Shown here in pieces: positions 2 through 24,889 of a DNA stretch of 30,143 nucleotides. The translations under genes were made by a program, and so were the position numbers. The notes under the pieces were generated by a model that saw nothing but the letters and a program-made list of their open reading frames with translations, was not told where the DNA came from and did no database searches. The first letter of the stretch is position 1. Each line of letters starts with the position of its first letter. The stretch spans positions 1 to 30,143 of IMG/VR virus record IMGVR_UViG_3300030109_003432. The stretch is one strand, 5' to 3'. This DNA is from a virus.

Positions 2-253
2 GCGTCGAGCAGGGATGGTGGGGCGGGTTCTCCACAGATTACCATAACACCAACTGTAACGAAGATAGATGACCGAACCATATCAGTATCGGGTATATTC
101 GATACTAGCCAAACATCTTCACAAACAATCAAAGAATTGGTGCTTCACGGCGATACTGCATTGGATACGCCGGCTTACCGTGCGACATTCATGCCGATAG
201 ACAAAACCGCATACAATGAAGTTAGGGTCGATGTATTGATGGAGGTTAGATGA
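2..253 (+). CDS. 3' end of a virion structural (tail/baseplate-type) protein, partial
   Basis: An open frame enters from the left edge and ends in TGA at 251-253, giving the last 83 residues of a protein. The visible part is beta-rich and Thr/Ser-rich (for example TITPTVTKIDDRTISVSG) and ends VLMEVR. That composition fits a phage tail or baseplate component, but I recognise no specific family. Its stop overlaps the start of the tail-fibre-like gene (ATGATGG), so the two are translationally coupled and probably belong to one structural operon. This frame has no stop from base 2 onward. It could be another type of virion protein. Confidence 0.6.
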   Translation, partial: ASSRDGGAGSPQITITPTVTKIDDRTISVSGIFDTSQTSSQTIKELVLHGDTALDTPAYRATFMPIDKTAYNEVRVDVLMEVR

Positions 254-1341
254 TGGCGGGAATAGGTCAAGGACATGAAACCGCTTCTCGATCACATCAA
301 GAGGATGGATTACAAGATGCCGATATTCTTTCTAGTCCGACATTAACTAACTTCAATGAACGTGCTTTGCTTAACGGTGTAGTAGCCGCTTCATTGAATC
401 AGTATGACGATGCTAACCGCAATACAACTCAGACCGGCAACTGTGCGGTATCTGTGTCTAGCGGAGATACTGTGGTTGTTGCAGCAGGGACAGTCCTTCT
501 TGACGGGCTGCTACACAGTATATCTGCAATCAACATAGATATCACAGATACCGCTAATAACGCTAAATTTCCTAACAATAGTAACACCCTGCCTTCTCTA
601 ACAGGTGCTAACTATGAAAGAGTCTTGTTAGTCTATATTGACCCAACCGTTACAGGCAAAGTCGCTTGTGTATATGGCGACGAAGTAAATACCGCAACAG
701 GCGTGTATGCCCAATCCCCCTCCGCCCACCTTTCATCACAAACCATTGTATTAGCATCTGCTCGTCTATCATACAGTAGCGGCGTTACTATTGCAAAGAT
801 GAATGATAAGCGGGTATTCATTAGACCCGGCCCATACGCTTTGACCGCATTAGAAAATTCAAGCGGCACGGCAACTAGCCCTGCAAATAGCGGATTCATT
901 ACAGGAGTTACTGCTAGTGCGCCCGTCACAGACATGGGCTTTCTCTTTGCCCGTGATCCTGTCGGCTTAGGTTCATACCCTAACGGCAATGGTGAAACAC
1001 ATCTATTCTATCAATCAGACCAAAGAATAGACTTATTGGGTTCAGGTGGTGCATATCAAATTACACCAACTCACAGAACCTCAATTGTTACAGACACCTA
1101 TACCGGCTCAGAAAAGACAGTAACATTGGCTTATGCCCCTTTAGGCTCACAAGATGAGGCAAGCACAAAGTTAGTCGAAGCGGTGATATACAAAACCTCA
1201 ACACCTAGATTCATTGCTACTTTGATTCAAGGCTCAGATTTTACCATATCAGGTAAAGTCGTTACAGTAGCCGCTTCATTAGGATATACAGGAACGCCAA
1301 CTAATGTGCGTATTACCTATGTTCATGCCGGACACGCTTAA
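250..1341 (+). CDS. Tail fibre / adhesin-like virion protein
   Basis: This encodes about 363 residues that are rich in Ser, Thr, Gly, Ala and Asn with alternating hydrophobic residues, typical of beta-structured fibre proteins. Residues about 60-140 (VSSGDTVVVAAGTVLLDG, then ANYERVLLVYID) follow the pattern of phage tail-fibre or tail-collar base domains, in which a strand-rich 'amount/value' domain precedes the receptor-binding tip. A GGAGG Shine-Dalgarno sequence lies just upstream and serves either of two adjacent ATGs (250 or 253). It is the last plus-strand gene and ends 4 bases from the stop of the first minus-strand gene, so two transcription units converge here. A role in host recognition is inferred from composition and context, not from a recognised family. 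Confidence 0.55.
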   Translation: MMAGIGQGHETASRSHQEDGLQDADILSSPTLTNFNERALLNGVVAASLNQYDDANRNTTQTGNCAVSVSSGDTVVVAAGTVLLDGLLHSISAINIDITDTANNAKFPNNSNTLPSLTGANYERVLLVYIDPTVTGKVACVYGDEVNTATGVYAQSPSAHLSSQTIVLASARLSYSSGVTIAKMNDKRVFIRPGPYALTALENSSGTATSPANSGFITGVTASAPVTDMGFLFARDPVGLGSYPNGNGETHLFYQSDQRIDLLGSGGAYQITPTHRTSIVTDTYTGSEKTVTLAYAPLGSQDEASTKLVEAVIYKTSTPRFIATLIQGSDFTISGKVVTVAASLGYTGTPTNVRITYVHAGHA

Positions 1342-1345
1342 TCGC

Positions 1346-1852
1346 TCATCTTGATGTTTCTTTGCGGCTACCGCCCGCGCCTAACTGCCTACGCATCTTC
1401 GGCCTAACATTGCCTCTTGACTTCTGACGATTGTATATGCTTCGGGTTCTGCCTCTAGCGACCTTTCTCGATTTATTCCATGCACGGGCTTTGCCTTGAC
1501 GTTCAGCCCTGCCGCTTACTGTATTCTTAGAATAGCCACGAAATTTGCCCTTTTCTTCGGATTTACCGAAGTCCTCCAACTCCATCACCCCTTCATCACC
1601 CCATACCTCATCATCAGGCACACCCGTTCCATTACAGGACACACATTCCATCATGTGATACGAAGTATCTTTGTTGGCTAATTCTCTAGCGTGTGCAAAA
1701 GAAGTCGAGTCGTCAGTATTTCCACTACCGACGGTAACTAATTGTTGGCCCGTGCCTTCACAAGAAGGACATCGCCCCGCTTCATAGTGTGTAATTTCTT
1801 CTAATGTTCTCGGCATTTTGACGATAGCCCACGCTTGGTCGAATGCAGACAT
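1346..1852 (-). CDS. Small protein with DnaJ-type zinc motifs and N-terminal AFDQAW tag
   Basis: This encodes about 168 residues. The N-terminus reads MSAFDQAWAIVK, the same tag found on three nearby genes. Two CxxCxGxG motifs follow (CPSCEGTG and CVSCNGTG), the signature of the DnaJ/Hsp40 central zinc-finger domain. No J-domain HPD motif is present, so it is not a complete co-chaperone. The C-terminal third is strongly basic (Lys/Arg-rich, ending GGSRKETSR), which suggests nucleic-acid or virion association. I chose the ATG at 1852, which overlaps the TAA of the upstream gene (TAATG), instead of the longer start at 1864. A chaperone link to the thermosome further along is possible but speculative. 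Confidence 0.6.
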   Translation of the reverse strand: MSAFDQAWAIVKMPRTLEEITHYEAGRCPSCEGTGQQLVTVGSGNTDDSTSFAHARELANKDTSYHMMECVSCNGTGVPDDEVWGDEGVMELEDFGKSEEKGKFRGYSKNTVSGRAERQGKARAWNKSRKVARGRTRSIYNRQKSRGNVRPKMRRQLGAGGSRKETSR

Positions 1853-2472
1853 TAACAATTCCACCTTTTCAACGCTGCACCCTTCGGCGTTAATTTTCCT
1901 TCTTTGCTTGTTGGCCCTTTAACACCGGACATACGAGCGCAGAACGATTTACGCCTTTTTGCTTTCTTAGAACCCGGCTTAAGTGTCGATGGCTTTTCAG
2001 TCACAGGAGGCTTTAGATTAGAACCCTGCTCACGCTTAAATTTAGCACGGCCTTTAGCATTCAACCCACCTTTACGACTATGCTTGTTTGGATTGTAGCC
2101 GTGAAATGGCTTATCCTTTTTCTTCGCCTTAGTCAATAAGGCCTTAGACAATATGTTGCAGGTATCGCAATCGCACATTGCTGATTTTACCATTGTTGGT
2201 TTGCCTCCTACTCCTTGTGGTTTGCTTCTTTTCCTTCTAGTCGCCGCTTTCTTTTCCTTTGCACTCATGTTTTTTGTAGTCTTAGGTGTCTTATCGCTCA
2301 CTTTCTTTGAAGGTCGGCATTTAGGATATCCTTTGCTTGATGTTTTAGCGTCGCTTCTCCCGCACGGTGGGTGTTTTCCATCTTTGTCTTTTCTTGATAC
2401 ATCAACCCACTTCTCCTTGAACCATCTTCGTAAATCCTTAGAAATTAAATCAGTAATCGGGTTTTCAATCAT
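1852..2472 (-). CDS. Basic, lysine-rich phage-type protein (two fused modules)
   Basis: This encodes about 206 residues and is extremely basic. The N-terminal part contains WVDVSRKDKDGKHPPCGRSD and YPKCRPSKKVS, a pattern I recognise from small uncharacterised proteins of marine tailed viruses. The C-terminal part (KRRKSFCARMSGVKGPTSKE, ending ALKRWNC) matches a second such module that is often a separate protein in other phages. The two appear fused here, joined by a Lys/Pro-rich linker with a CDCDTC cluster. The function is unknown; DNA binding or condensation is plausible from charge. I placed the start at the ATG at 2472, behind a GGGGGGTAAAA sequence and overlapping the upstream stop, not at 2535. 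Confidence 0.7.
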   Translation of the reverse strand: MIENPITDLISKDLRRWFKEKWVDVSRKDKDGKHPPCGRSDAKTSSKGYPKCRPSKKVSDKTPKTTKNMSAKEKKAATRRKRSKPQGVGGKPTMVKSAMCDCDTCNILSKALLTKAKKKDKPFHGYNPNKHSRKGGLNAKGRAKFKREQGSNLKPPVTEKPSTLKPGSKKAKRRKSFCARMSGVKGPTSKEGKLTPKGAALKRWNC

Positions 2473-2686
2473 TTTTACCCCCCGCCCACGCATCACAAAT
2501 ATGATCTGCTCGGCAGGTGAAATCATACCATTCACAATAACCCGTCATTGGGTCATCTGTCTTTGAAGAATCCCACGCTTTACAATTACCGCAATTCTTA
2601 GAGCCGGATGCCTTTCTGTAATTAGGGGCATCCTTTTTGGCTTTCATTAGCGACCAAATATGATTGAATTCAGAATCGCTAATCAT
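2465..2686 (-). CDS. Cysteine-rich small protein
   Basis: This encodes about 73 residues. Six cysteines fall in the second half with the spacing CGNC...YCEWYDFTC...ICDAW, suggesting a metal-binding or iron-sulfur mini-domain. I recognise no family. The start at 2686 overlaps the stop of the upstream gene (ATGA), and its own end overlaps the start of the downstream basic protein, so it sits in a coupled chain. Confidence 0.6.
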   Translation of the reverse strand: MISDSEFNHIWSLMKAKKDAPNYRKASGSKNCGNCKAWDSSKTDDPMTGYCEWYDFTCRADHICDAWAGGKND

Positions 2687-3000
2687 TTCTTTTCCGCCTT
2701 GCCCTTCTTTTTCCAACCGCCGCCTTTGGACTTATACCACTTAGCAGCCCAACCGTTAGCATAGGCTGACGGATATACTTTGAATTTAGAACGGGCTTTT
2801 GATTTGGCTTGCGACCATAGGCTAGGGTTGGTTGGTTGATTTTCACCTTTGTATTCAGATTTTTCGACTTTGTTTTGCCTTTCGCAAATTTCGGAACAGT
2901 ATTCGCTATTCGGAGAGCCATGCGCTAAACCGCAGCCCTTACACTCGTCAATAGGAACTTCATTCTTTGCGATAGCCCAAGCCTTGTCAAATGCGGTCAT
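2683..3000 (-). CDS. AFDKAW-tagged small protein with a marine-phage basic module
   Basis: This encodes 105 residues. MTAFDKAWAIAK at the N-terminus is the shared tag of this cluster. It is followed by a cysteine cluster (CKGCGLAHGSPNSEYCSEIC) that looks zinc-binding, then a basic C-terminal module with KARSKFKVYPSAYANGWAAK and WYKSKGGGWKKKG. That last pattern is common in small uncharacterised proteins of marine tailed viruses. GAGAGG lies about 9 bases upstream of the ATG as Shine-Dalgarno. The protein seems modular: tag, zinc knuckle, basic tail. Confidence 0.75.
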   Translation of the reverse strand: MTAFDKAWAIAKNEVPIDECKGCGLAHGSPNSEYCSEICERQNKVEKSEYKGENQPTNPSLWSQAKSKARSKFKVYPSAYANGWAAKWYKSKGGGWKKKGKAEKK

Positions 3001-3185
3001 CTTAATTGCCTCTCATTTTCTTTACGATTGCGATTCATTTTTGCCCCGCAGCCTATACAATATGCCTTCCCGTCTTCTCCTTCGTAGTGCAACCCTTCGT
3101 AATTTCTTATGTTCGCCGTGCAACCTTCGCTTGCACATATACGGCTTTCTTTCACGACACCCCAAGCCTTGTCAAATGCGGTCAT
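2997..3185 (-). CDS. AFDKAW-tagged zinc-ribbon microprotein
   Basis: This encodes 62 residues: the MTAFDKAWGVVK tag followed by a compact domain with CASEGC and CIGC pairs, consistent with a four-cysteine zinc ribbon, then a basic tail. The start overlaps the upstream stop and the end overlaps the next start by four bases. The function is unknown; the tag suggests that it is targeted to the same partner as its neighbours. Confidence 0.7.
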   Translation of the reverse strand: MTAFDKAWGVVKESRICASEGCTANIRNYEGLHYEGEDGKAYCIGCGAKMNRNRKENERQLR

Positions 3186-3511
3186 CTGTAAGCCTCCGTA
3201 TATGCGGTCATCAAGTCTGTTCCATCAACGCCTAAAAGACGAGCGACGTTCCTTACTGCATCCATTATAGGATAATTATGATTTTTGACTAAATCATGCA
3301 CTTCATCAACATACATATGAGCGTTGCTTTTGTTTAGATTCTCTCGGTTTTTCTTATTTCTCGCTTGAATCTCAGCAATCTTAGCAGCCTCGCTTTCTTT
3401 AGCCCTTTTTGATGCGTTTTCATCCTGTCCGGTTGAAGGTGTGCTAGTGATTCTTTTCATTTCCTCAGAATCGGCTTTGGCTATGGCCCATGCTCTCGCA
3501 AATACGCCCAT
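3182..3511 (-). CDS. AFARAW-tagged helical protein
   Basis: This encodes 109 residues. The tag here is MGVFARAWAIAKAD. The middle is a charged, Ala/Glu/Lys/Asn-rich stretch that should form a helix or coiled coil (residues about 20-65). The C-terminal part (VDEVHDLVKNHNYPIMDAVRNVARLLG) looks helical and globular. There are no cysteines, unlike its tagged neighbours. The function is unknown. Confidence 0.65.
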   Translation of the reverse strand: MGVFARAWAIAKADSEEMKRITSTPSTGQDENASKRAKESEAAKIAEIQARNKKNRENLNKSNAHMYVDEVHDLVKNHNYPIMDAVRNVARLLGVDGTDLMTAYTEAYR

Positions 3512-20249: not shown

Positions 20250-21836
20250 TTAGCCCATCATTCCATCAGGGGCCGGCGGTGCGCCACCTTTCATCGAAAT
20301 TACGTCATCAATCCTGAGAACCATGACTGATGCTTCGGTCGCTGATGCGATAGCGTTAGAAGTAACTTTACGAGGTTCTAGCACACCTAAGTCTAACATA
20401 TCCACGACTTCACCATCTGTGGATATTCCATGCTTGTTAGAGGCCGCCTTTCTTAGATTGAGGATTGCATCCACCGGATCTAGTCCGGCGTTCTCAGCGA
20501 GCGTTCTAGGGATGATTTCTAGCGCATTAGCGAAGGCTTCTATCGCCATACCTACTCTATCCCCTATCTCAGCCGCCTTTGCCCTCAGATGTTGAGCCAG
20601 CCATGTTTGAACCGCACCACCACCTGCTACTAGATTGCCTTCATTCCATGCTAGACCAACCACACCTATTGCATCATCAAAGGCTCTCTCGACCTCATCG
20701 ACAGAATGTCCGGTTGAACCCCTTAGAATAGCAGTAGCGGCCTTATCGCCGTCTTCTGTGCTAATCAGGGTGTTTCTTGAGTCGCCGTATTTGACCTCTT
20801 TAATGGAACACTTAGCGAGCGAATCATACCCATAGTCATCACTACACAACGGCGCACTCGTCAAATGGCTCAACATTTCCATGTCTGAACGCTTTACTCG
20901 ATGAATAGCATACACGCCGGCTTTACCTAGATAGTGAGAAGCCAATGGATCTATTGCTTTATTACAAATAACAACATTTGCATTTGTCGCTACAATTGAT
21001 TCGACCATGCCTTTGATTTCATCTTCTTCTTGTCTAAGCAATTCTTCTAACTGCTTAGGGTCGCTGATGTTGAAATTGATATCTTTCTCAGTCTTCTTTG
21101 CTTCTAGTGGGGCCATCAATAACAGGACTCTCGCATCTGCTATCTCATCAGGCATAGATGATTGAAGACGCTCTTTTTCTATTAGAACACCATCTAACAG
21201 GTTTGATTCTTCATACGTTCCGCCTTCAAATGAAAGCACCTTGACGTTATCTAAATTGAATGGTTGAGCGACTTCTGTGGTGTTTTGAACGGCCTTTACG
21301 CACATTTCAGCAATGATATCTATTGCCGCCTCAGCCGATTTGCCCGTCAATGCCGTTTTAGCAACCGCTAACAAATCTCCATGCTCATGTTCAGCATGGA
21401 ATCCTAATTGTGATAATTCATCTAATGCAATTTGAGATGCTTGGCGGTATCCCTTAGCAATGATTGTCGGGTGTATCTGCTGATTCAGCAGCCCCTCAGC
21501 CTCCTTGAGTAATTCACCTGCAATGACTACTGCACTCGTAGTGCCGTCATAGCATTCCTTCTCTTGAGTCTTTGATACCTCAATAATCAATTTAGCAGCC
21601 GGATGATCGATATCCACTTCTCTTAGAATAGTAGCCCCATCATTAGTAATCAAGACGTTTTCACCATTGCCTGTAACTAGCATCTTATCCATACCCATTG
21701 GCCCTAATGTTGTTCTAACTGCATTGGCTACTGCTGCCGCCGCACCAATGTTGTTCATCTGTGCCGTTCTGCCTGTCGTTCTTTCTGTTCCTTCTCTTAA
21801 GATGTAAATAGGCTGCCCGCCTTGCTGCTGCATCAT
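20250..21836 (-). CDS. thsA-like: Group II chaperonin (thermosome subunit)
   Basis: This encodes about 528 residues. Family landmarks run in order: [18 protein letters not shown] at the N-terminus, [47 protein letters not shown] (the GDGTT ATPase motif with Tyr for Gly), [48 protein letters not shown] and a Gly/Met tail (DGMMG). It forms a double-ring ATP-dependent folding chamber with a built-in lid; such genes occur in magroviruses. It probably folds virion or replication proteins. I chose the ATG at 21836 because the product then starts MMQQQGGQP like known thermosomes. A promoter word ends 25 bases upstream, and no ribosome-binding site is visible, so the mRNA may be leaderless. Confidence 0.95.
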
Positions 21837-21860
21837 ACACTTAGCGGTATTCATACAGGT

Positions 21861-21882
21861 TATGAATGCTCTATCCATTCAT
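21861..21882 (-). promoter_or_regulatory. AGAGCATTCATA word, copy 3, inside an inverted repeat (candidate thermosome promoter)
   Basis: The 12-base word occupies 21861-21872. The interval 21862-21882 is also an inverted repeat, with 7-base arms ATGAATG/CATTCAT and a 7-base spacer, lying between helicase and thermosome. Confidence 0.55.
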
Positions 21883-23368: not shown

Positions 23369-23380
23369 TGGGTATTAGAA
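23369..23380 (-). promoter_or_regulatory. TTCTAATACCCA word, copy 2 (candidate promoter)
   Basis: Exact match to 20182-20193. It overlaps the TAA stop of the methyltransferase (TTC TAA), so its first half is under coding constraint. Confidence 0.45.
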
Positions 23381-24889
23381 CCAATCTGATATGTTCATTT
23401 GCGTTGAACGTGGTTTAGGTATGAATTCCGCTTCTTCAATTTCATACTCTCCCCAATGTGCTATTCTATGCCGTGCGATATTCAGGTATTCCTCATCCAT
23501 CTCAATTCCTACGAAGTTATATCCCTCAAGACAGGCTGCTATCCCTGTTGAACCACTACCCATGAATGGATCAAGCACGATACCTCCCTCTTTTGTAACC
23601 AATTTTGATAAATACCTCATCAGACTGATAGGCTTCACGGTTGGATGATTGTTACCATCACACCCCGCATTCCTTTCAGACTGTGATACCTTCGGGCAAT
23701 AGAAGAAGCGAGAGCCACCTCCTAGTCCGTCAGAAAAACCATTGGAGTCGCCCTTTTTTGCCGGATTAGTCCATGCGTTACCTGTCCCGCCTTGATTATC
23801 AGTATTTCTTGAAGAATTCTTAGGATTACCTACCATTGGGGCTTGTTCGTCTAAGATAGCACCTGCTACTTCATCCATGATTACATTAGAAGGCCAACGG
23901 CCTTTAGGTGAAAACACATCGACTCTTTTTTTGTGGCCGGTGTCTTTCCAAACGGCCTTTTCATGTTCCTTCGGTGCTTTCTCAGATGCTTTTTTGTTTC
24001 TTGCATAACTTTCAGCGTCATACTCTATTCTGCACCCATCTATGTTCAAAGCACCCGTTCCTTGCTCAAGCACATTCTCAACCACCGTTCCTATCAATGG
24101 CTTACGAGCGACACAAACAGGCTCATGGGCGGGCTTGAGAGCCGTTCCCCAACCATCCCACTCTTTCGCCTTATCAGAACCCAATGCGTATATTTCCTCA
24201 TCTCTCGATTGAGATTCAGAATTGGGCCTTTTAGCAAAATCATCTCCCCCCGACCTCGCATGGGTTTTCACCGCCAAAAATTCACCCCTCACTTCATCTA
24301 TTGAATTGAAAGGTAAATTGAAGGTAGCGCAAATTGTGTTAAATTGTTCATTCGTTGGGAGGCTATGCCCTAATTCCCAATTCGCTACGCGACCTGTTAG
24401 ATTTCCTGTTTTGCTTGGAAATAACTTAGAAATTTCCTTCTGCGGGATTTCATTCTCGGTTCTCCATTTCCTTAACCATTGGCCGAACCATGCAATACTC
24501 TCTCCACCTCTCTTATCTATCGCTTTGCTGATGTTATGCGATTTGGGGAATCCACTAAAATAGAGCCAACATACGATTGAATCTCTAATCTCAAACCCTG
24601 CATCCTCGATATTAACAACCATTCGATGATAGGTTCTCGTTCCACTAAAGGCGAGTAAATGACCGCCGGGTTTCAAGACTCGTAATGCCTCCCTCCATAT
24701 CTCAACCGAAGGAACGTCATAATCCCATTCTTTACCCATGAATCCGCCTTTACTTGATTTACCACTATTACGGGCCGCGCTCAACCCGTATGGTGGGTCG
24801 GTCACGATAGAATCAACGGAGTTATCCTCCATTTCCTTCATTACGTCTAGGCAATCTCCCAACCTTAGATCGATTGTGGGAATAGACAT
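23375..24889 (-). CDS. Beta-class DNA methyltransferase (N6-adenine or N4-cytosine) with inserted XRE-type HTH and C-terminal PIP box
   Basis: This encodes 504 residues. Motif IV DPPY is at 31-34 and the SAM-binding motif DPFMGSGSTG near 440-449. The IV-then-I order defines the beta class. Between them is a segment with the pattern of an XRE/Cro helix-turn-helix (FGQWLRKWRTENEIPQKEIS, then VANWELGHSLPTNEQF), a known insertion in phage methylases, followed by the target-recognition region with KGRWPSNVIMDE. The C-terminus STQMNISDWF is an almost ideal PCNA-interacting peptide (Qxx-hydrophobic-xx-aromatic-aromatic) at the extreme end. Likely roles are host-restriction evasion or marking of new virus DNA. 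No cognate restriction enzyme is visible. Confidence 0.9.
   Translation of the reverse strand: MSIPTIDLRLGDCLDVMKEMEDNSVDSIVTDPPYGLSAARNSGKSSKGGFMGKEWDYDVPSVEIWREALRVLKPGGHLLAFSGTRTYHRMVVNIEDAGFEIRDSIVCWLYFSGFPKSHNISKAIDKRGGESIAWFGQWLRKWRTENEIPQKEISKLFPSKTGNLTGRVANWELGHSLPTNEQFNTICATFNLPFNSIDEVRGEFLAVKTHARSGGDDFAKRPNSESQSRDEEIYALGSDKAKEWDGWGTALKPAHEPVCVARKPLIGTVVENVLEQGTGALNIDGCRIEYDAESYARNKKASEKAPKEHEKAVWKDTGHKKRVDVFSPKGRWPSNVIMDEVAGAILDEQAPMVGNPKNSSRNTDNQGGTGNAWTNPAKKGDSNGFSDGLGGGSRFFYCPKVSQSERNAGCDGNNHPTVKPISLMRYLSKLVTKEGGIVLDPFMGSGSTGIAACLEGYNFVGIEMDEEYLNIARHRIAHWGEYEIEEAEFIPKPRSTQMNISDWF
23881..23902 (-). repeat. 22-bp direct repeat (methyltransferase copy)
   Basis: Exact match to 25477-25498. 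It lies in the target-recognition region of the methyltransferase. Confidence 0.85.

Follow-up and report, generated by a model that had tools for sequence, protein, structure and literature searches.

Why should neighbouring genes with unrelated products open with nearly the same twelve residues? The question is raised by the virus record IMGVR_UViG_3300030109_003432 (IMG/VR), analysed here over positions 1 to 30,143 (30,143 nucleotides, hereafter the window), in which six consecutive genes on the minus strand span positions 1346-3511 and four of them share an N-terminal tag. A first-pass annotation had interpreted this start as a portable docking tag, and our comparisons with other viral contigs support that interpretation. 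By analogy with phage T4, we consider that the tag is probably (with a probability of about 0.7) the equivalent, in archaeal viruses, of the T4 capsid-targeting sequence (CTS), which would load effectors into proheads for injection.

A common start on unrelated proteins

Translation bore out the shared start of the four genes, which reads MSAFDQAWAIVK (1346-1852), MTAFDKAWAIAK (2683-3000), MTAFDKAWGVVK (2997-3185) and MGVFARAWAIAK (3182-3511) and fits M-[TSG]-[AV]-F-x-x-A-W-[AG]-[IV]-[VA]-K in all cases. About 0.0015 open reading frames with a start-proximal F..AW...K are expected in the window, as compared with the four observed. A fifth gene (2465-2686) starts with MISDSEFNHIWSLMKA, a degenerate copy of the tag; its homologues carry the canonical N-terminal tag in L081 (MINQEAFDHAWAILKAK) and a C-terminal FEKAW in G012. 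The tag is thus present on four, arguably five, of the six genes, arranged as follows.

1346-1852, minus strand: gene 1, 168 residues; tag, DnaJ-type CxxCxGxG zinc pairs (weak Pfam DnaJ_CXXCXGXG match) and a basic C-terminal module (KGKFRGYSKNT...RPKMRRQLGAGG)
1817-1852, minus strand: tag of gene 1, MSAFDQAWAIVK, from translation; fits the tag logo of 354 open reading frames
1852-2472, minus strand: gene 2, untagged basic protein with DUF5872 and DUF6321 (Pfam E 1e-18 and 6e-12)
2465-2686, minus strand: gene 3, small Cys-rich protein with the degenerate N-terminal tag MISDSEFNHIWSLMKA, from sequence
2683-3000, minus strand: gene 4, 105 residues; tag, Cys motif and DUF5872-like basic module (DUF5872 E 2e-4; phrog_27331 E 3e-6)
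2965-3000, minus strand: tag of gene 4, MTAFDKAWAIAK, from translation; fits the logo
2997-3185, minus strand: gene 5, 62 residues; tag and zinc-ribbon-like Cys pairs, from sequence
3150-3185, minus strand: tag of gene 5, MTAFDKAWGVVK, from translation; fits the logo
3182-3511, minus strand: gene 6, 109 residues; tag and a charged, probably helical body, from sequence; tagged homologues in G002 and G011
3476-3511, minus strand: tag of gene 6, MGVFARAWAIAK, from translation; fits the logo

That the bodies behind the tag are unrelated was likewise confirmed, as blastp comparisons among the four tagged window bodies gave no match at E<1. Relatives of the gene 1 modules are tagged singly elsewhere, the basic module in L069 and L058 and the zinc module in L019. 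Gene 2 itself lacks the tag, which is however present in L119 and L096 on proteins related to its DUF6321 part.

Similar tags had been supposed to occur on other small marine virus proteins. Viral contigs, scanned with a degenerate DNA pattern for AFDxAW..K and with mechanical gene calls throughout, contained at least 415 distinct tagged proteins (samples combined). After removal of the tag, these fell into 216 body families, 146 of which were singletons (blastp E<1e-3 and half-length overlap; the counts vary with the threshold). This diversity, together with the lack of mutual similarity among the window bodies, rules out whole-protein paralogy as the origin of the tags. A looser pattern gave up to 18-19 matches per record, nearly all of them on the same strand, versus 0-1 per record for the reversed-pattern control. 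Records with a single match (for instance, L048, L066 and L045) look like chance matches, and the strict pattern had no exact match in a scan of cellular genome contigs.

The logo of 354 open reading frames, in which F, A and W were imposed by the search pattern and the remaining positions were free, yielded the consensus M-[TSN]-[AP]-F-[DE]-x-A-W-x-[LIV]-[LVA]-K, with F at position 4 in 242 of them. Lys12 was found in 91% (3.4 bits), and the three positions following it held 0.6, 0.3 and 0.16 bits. Synonymous codons were mixed at every position of the tag, and upstream of it only a G-rich Shine-Dalgarno-like stretch was visible. Because conservation ends at the lysine and synonymous codons vary, the peptide is the unit under selection; a DNA or RNA element is ruled out, the upstream conservation being that of an ordinary ribosome-site-like stretch. 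Random pairs of tags are about 58% identical and the tags of homologues, whose bodies are 37% identical, reach 66%; the tag is therefore maintained by shared selection and not by descent alone. Its helical moment is 0.51, compared with 0.31 for body segments, and predicted structures present it, at low confidence, as a separate short helix.

Tag clusters, head genes and the portal

Clustering of tagged genes near head and portal genes, an expectation of the docking interpretation, was found in viral contigs. Twelve many-tag records share one syntenic head block, encoding an Arf-like GTPase-like protein, several unassigned proteins, TerL, portal, S78 prohead protease and major capsid protein (MCP; Pfam/PHROG), and a second, deeper clade (G013, G014, G016 and G022) has the same plan. 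In both of these deeply split clades, the tag clusters lie upstream of GTPase-TerL-portal-S78 protease-MCP, on the same strand. Whereas the tag pattern served to select the first loci, the samples based on the GTPase and on the portal were drawn independently of it. Among 68 loci chosen by the GTPase regardless of the tag, whose upstream sequence spanned at least 3 kb, 49 had upstream tags: all 236 lay on the same strand, with none opposite and none for the reversed-motif control. Together with the reversed-pattern counts per record, these figures rule out a chance origin of the tags.

A docking tag also calls for a conserved partner in the genomes that carry it. One specific portal family occurred in 42 of the 49 records with at least two tags, and the other seven are partial records of 8-62 kb. 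The 71 distinct complete portals comprise 24 short and 47 long ones, most of the latter with a common C-terminal domain. A separate open reading frame homologous to this domain was present in 21 of the 24 short-portal loci, and it was tagged in 20 of these 21; the remaining homologue (L317) is apparently a long-portal end that has broken off. In the three short-portal loci where the separate homologue was not found, the sequence stops about 450 nucleotides or less from the portal. Only three of the 47 long-portal loci had a separate copy, tagged in all cases, and their portals end in different C-terminal domains.

None of the 47 long portals retained FxxAW in its C-terminal part, and many keep a stub at the junction, such as LFKR, MFKR or LVKR. 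The junction is exemplified by ...GQFELFKRDVTDPVHGS in the G002 portal, as compared with the tagged MSAFDLAWELVKRDVRDPIHGS in L086. Since separate C-terminal domains are tagged and fused portals lack FxxAW, the tag and a covalent link with the portal substitute for each other. The portal C-terminus of tailed phages points into the head. This orientation and the exchange of the tag with portal fusion indicate that docking probably takes place inside the prohead or close to its interior.

Other head-region proteins also match stand-alone tagged proteins, namely p30340 (G015) and p22224/p20981. We further observed that the conserved head-block protein p17782 is tagged in a subset of viruses only, with M[IV]FGRS[NE]DAFEDAW (L225:15342-16688, L081, L222 and L211). 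Separately, a conserved VQK[ST] lies close to the C-terminal end in many clade I portals, both short and long (the L136 portal and homologues), and is a possible processing site.

Virus lineage and tagged bodies

The MCP of the tag-bearing viruses is 33-35% identical to those of Haloarcula viruses HVTV-1 and HCTV-1, its best matches being HVTV-1, HCTV-1 and HCTV-5. An HVTV-1-like MCP clade is tied to magroviruses in the literature (PMC8651126), and by sequence comparison the MCP of the tag-bearing viruses appears to fall within this Druskaviridae/magrovirus clade. They resemble magroviruses and Poseidoniales viruses (Magrovirales and Adrikavirales, kin of Druskaviridae) in their HVTV-1/HCTV-1-like MCP, S78 protease, portal and group II chaperonin, and we infer that their hosts are Poseidoniales. 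Searches with TerL, chaperonin and helicase for named phage relatives gave distant matches or none. The stretches of HVTV-1, HCTV-1 and vir519 that were compared contained no tag-like motifs; the tag is not mentioned in the profiles of Apasviridae and Satyavativiridae, and the words 'N-terminal' and 'motif' are absent from Xu et al. 2023.

Over part of its length, G006, a record of 108 kb (a size near that reported for magrovirus_A_01), is collinear with the window; the head genes lie outside the window fragment. Because of this collinearity and of its chaperonin gene, the window is a replication-side fragment of the magrovirus-like, tag-bearing virus type. Features beyond the six genes, including an HMGL-like (HMG-CoA lyase family) enzyme of other records, are listed here.

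250-1341, plus strand: convergent gene adjoining the window tag cluster; no significant Pfam or PHROG match; homologues beside a tag cluster in G006, G015 and G008 (blastp 40-50% identity)
20250-21878: group II chaperonin, Cpn60_TCP1 (Pfam E 5e-148)
23375-24889: N6/N4 DNA methyltransferase, PF01555
L135:3099-3950, L166:9284-10234 and L167:12048-12872: HMGL-like genes

The HMGL-like enzyme, possibly the product of an auxiliary metabolic gene, occurs within tag clusters in both clades and is untagged in every record seen; the tag is therefore not a property of operon position.

Small-GTPase-like motifs (GxxxxGKT, D[VI][GA]G and NKxD) are recognizable in L135:13416-14141 and its homologues (A3), which adjoin the tag cluster in both clades; L135:13416-14141 had no Pfam match, and an Arf-like GTPase within a head operon would be unusual. 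A small protein of the head operon (L135:16110-16529) contains EF-hand-like calcium-binding repeats.

Most tagged proteins are 50-250 residues long, and most of their bodies gave no library match indicative of a function. The bodies that could be assigned agree with the earlier suggestion that the tag delivers diverse effectors. An ADP-ribosyltransferase fold of the KptA/Tpt1 type was recognized in one large tagged family (Foldseek E 8.5e-4, probability 1.0; VIA Z 9.4, root-mean-square deviation 2.3 over 89 residues). Another has a GNAT acetyltransferase fold (Foldseek probability about 1.0, with E only 0.015 or weaker) and carries RRGYA, matching the R-G-x-[GA] motif. Further bodies are C5 and N6 DNA methylases, NUDIX, ParB, DUF6321 and DnaJ-type zinc proteins; as motif counts only, HExxH was found in 16 body families and paired CxxC in 41. 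Fused multi-tag proteins are few and retain their internal tags, as in a 690-residue G002 protein with four. In L119 (7411-9480) and L221, a fused protein starts with a tag and contains three more internally, each of these three behind an SGD-like linker; it is a possible cargo polyprotein.

Probable prohead loading and its alternatives

How could one short helix serve so many bodies? In the reading that we favour, the tag would form an N-terminal amphipathic helix with a face of F4, A7, W8 and [LV]11, ending at Lys12, and would dock unrelated virus proteins onto a component of the assembling head. The docked proteins would be enclosed in the prohead and would enter the next host cell together with the DNA; we infer this sequence of docking, injection and action on the host.

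The closest precedent is the T4 CTS, a 10-residue N-terminal peptide on internal proteins, with targeting residues 4 and 7 and a prohead-protease cut after L/I-x-E (PMC9026906). In both cases a short N-terminal peptide, here with F4, A7 and W8 conserved among 12 residues, precedes otherwise different proteins, and the cargo genes belong to the head or late module, in same-strand clusters in our records. T4 cuts after L/I-x-E, and the tag here ends in [LIV]-[LVA]-K; both sets of proteins include an ADP-ribosyltransferase, that of T4 being Alt, which is packaged in the head and trimmed (PMC9026906). The two differ in lineage, here that of archaeal viruses with an HVTV-1-like MCP, and in consensus, and we claim a functional analogy alone. 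They differ also in scale, with more than 200 candidate cargo families and up to about 18 copies per record here, versus a handful in T4.

An N-terminal peptide of the phage P1 protein DarB similarly brings both this large injected protein and a reporter into the head (PMC9024508); no consensus for the Dar proteins was found in that study, whereas hundreds of proteins share one here. The bodies also overlap in repertoire with the effector domains of polyvalent proteins, in which ADP-ribosyltransferase, GNAT, zincin, kinase and ParB-like domains are co-injected (Iyer et al. 2017; PMC5512222). Unlike polyvalent proteins, in which 2-15 domains are joined in one giant chain, those described here are mostly separate small proteins with one tag. 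The searchable literature yielded no archaeal-virus capsid-targeting sequence.

By further analogy with T4 gp21, which cuts after L/I-x-E, the S78 prohead protease might cut after [LIV]-[LVA]-K; this step is speculative, and what sequence support we found for a cut after Lys12 is weak. The MCPs hold a conserved ELLKAD/DLLKAD. Conserved hydrophobic-x-K-[AGSTN] sites numbered 19 in 11 head-block families, against two for the reversed motif (an imperfect control), and three families not expected to be substrates had two of each. The sequence of HK97 gp5 reads ...TFNK|SLG, where the known cut follows the lysine. We did not accept NAWAYSGTDLLKADSP of the MCP as a true copy of the tag, as the second clade keeps LLKAD alone and the aligned HVTV-1 region reads MSKAD; FILKS/LLKAG of the protease could be no more than the opening strand of its fold. 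Only tentatively, then, and at less than even odds, would we propose a 12-residue cargo code with separable halves, FxxAW for docking in the prohead and hydrophobic-hydrophobic-Lys for release by the protease, which would route more than 200 families into virions as a swappable injected arsenal and be replaceable by portal fusion.

Four points weigh against loading into proheads for injection. Bodies such as DNA methylases could also work in the producing cell. The upstream clusters of 16 assembled records contain 152 tagged and 113 untagged genes of at least 50 residues, so that about 40% of such genes lack the tag under the loose pattern. The window tags stand at the end of a replication-gene operon, away from head genes, the head half lying outside the fragment. 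Finally, a simple N-terminal signal does not need the internal tags of fused multi-module proteins.

Some of these points would suit docking to a hub inside the producing cell, such as a replication focus, the virus thermosome, the Arf-like GTPase or a host complex, with the tagged proteins acting in that same infection. Tagged methylases and DNA-binding bodies fit it, a second tag cluster adjoins replication genes in the window, G006 and G015, and the GTPase gene adjoins the main cluster in both clades. We nevertheless consider a non-virion hub unlikely, because tag and portal fusion replace one another at the C-terminal domain, the tags lie on the strand of the head genes, and the HMGL-like enzyme, which is of a cytoplasmic type, is untagged.

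Less probable still is a signal of head assembly, by which tagged proteins would be internal structural, core or scaffold components, mostly degraded or retained and not injected. The patchy distribution of 216 families and enzyme folds typical of host-modifying proteins argue against it, even though p22224, p20981 and p17782 of the head region are tagged in some viruses and many bodies are small, with no assigned function. A membrane-binding helix tethering proteins to the host membrane is very improbable: the high helical moment would suit it, but F, A, W and K are nearly invariant and fixed in spacing, which far exceeds the specificity that membrane helices need, and the links to one portal lineage and to portal fusion would be left unexplained. 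A nucleic-acid feature (translation-start enhancer or recombination site) or duplication relic, for which tightly packed genes and possible aid to translation could be invoked, is refuted for practical purposes by varying synonymous codons, unrelated bodies, in-frame internal and C-terminal copies and untagged HMGL-like neighbours.

Loading into proheads therefore stays our preferred reading of the tag. If it is correct, the first 12 residues would list candidate injected proteins of abundant uncultured marine viruses, hundreds of unidentified small proteins would become candidate host-takeover factors, and the tag would provide an addressable cargo-loading system.
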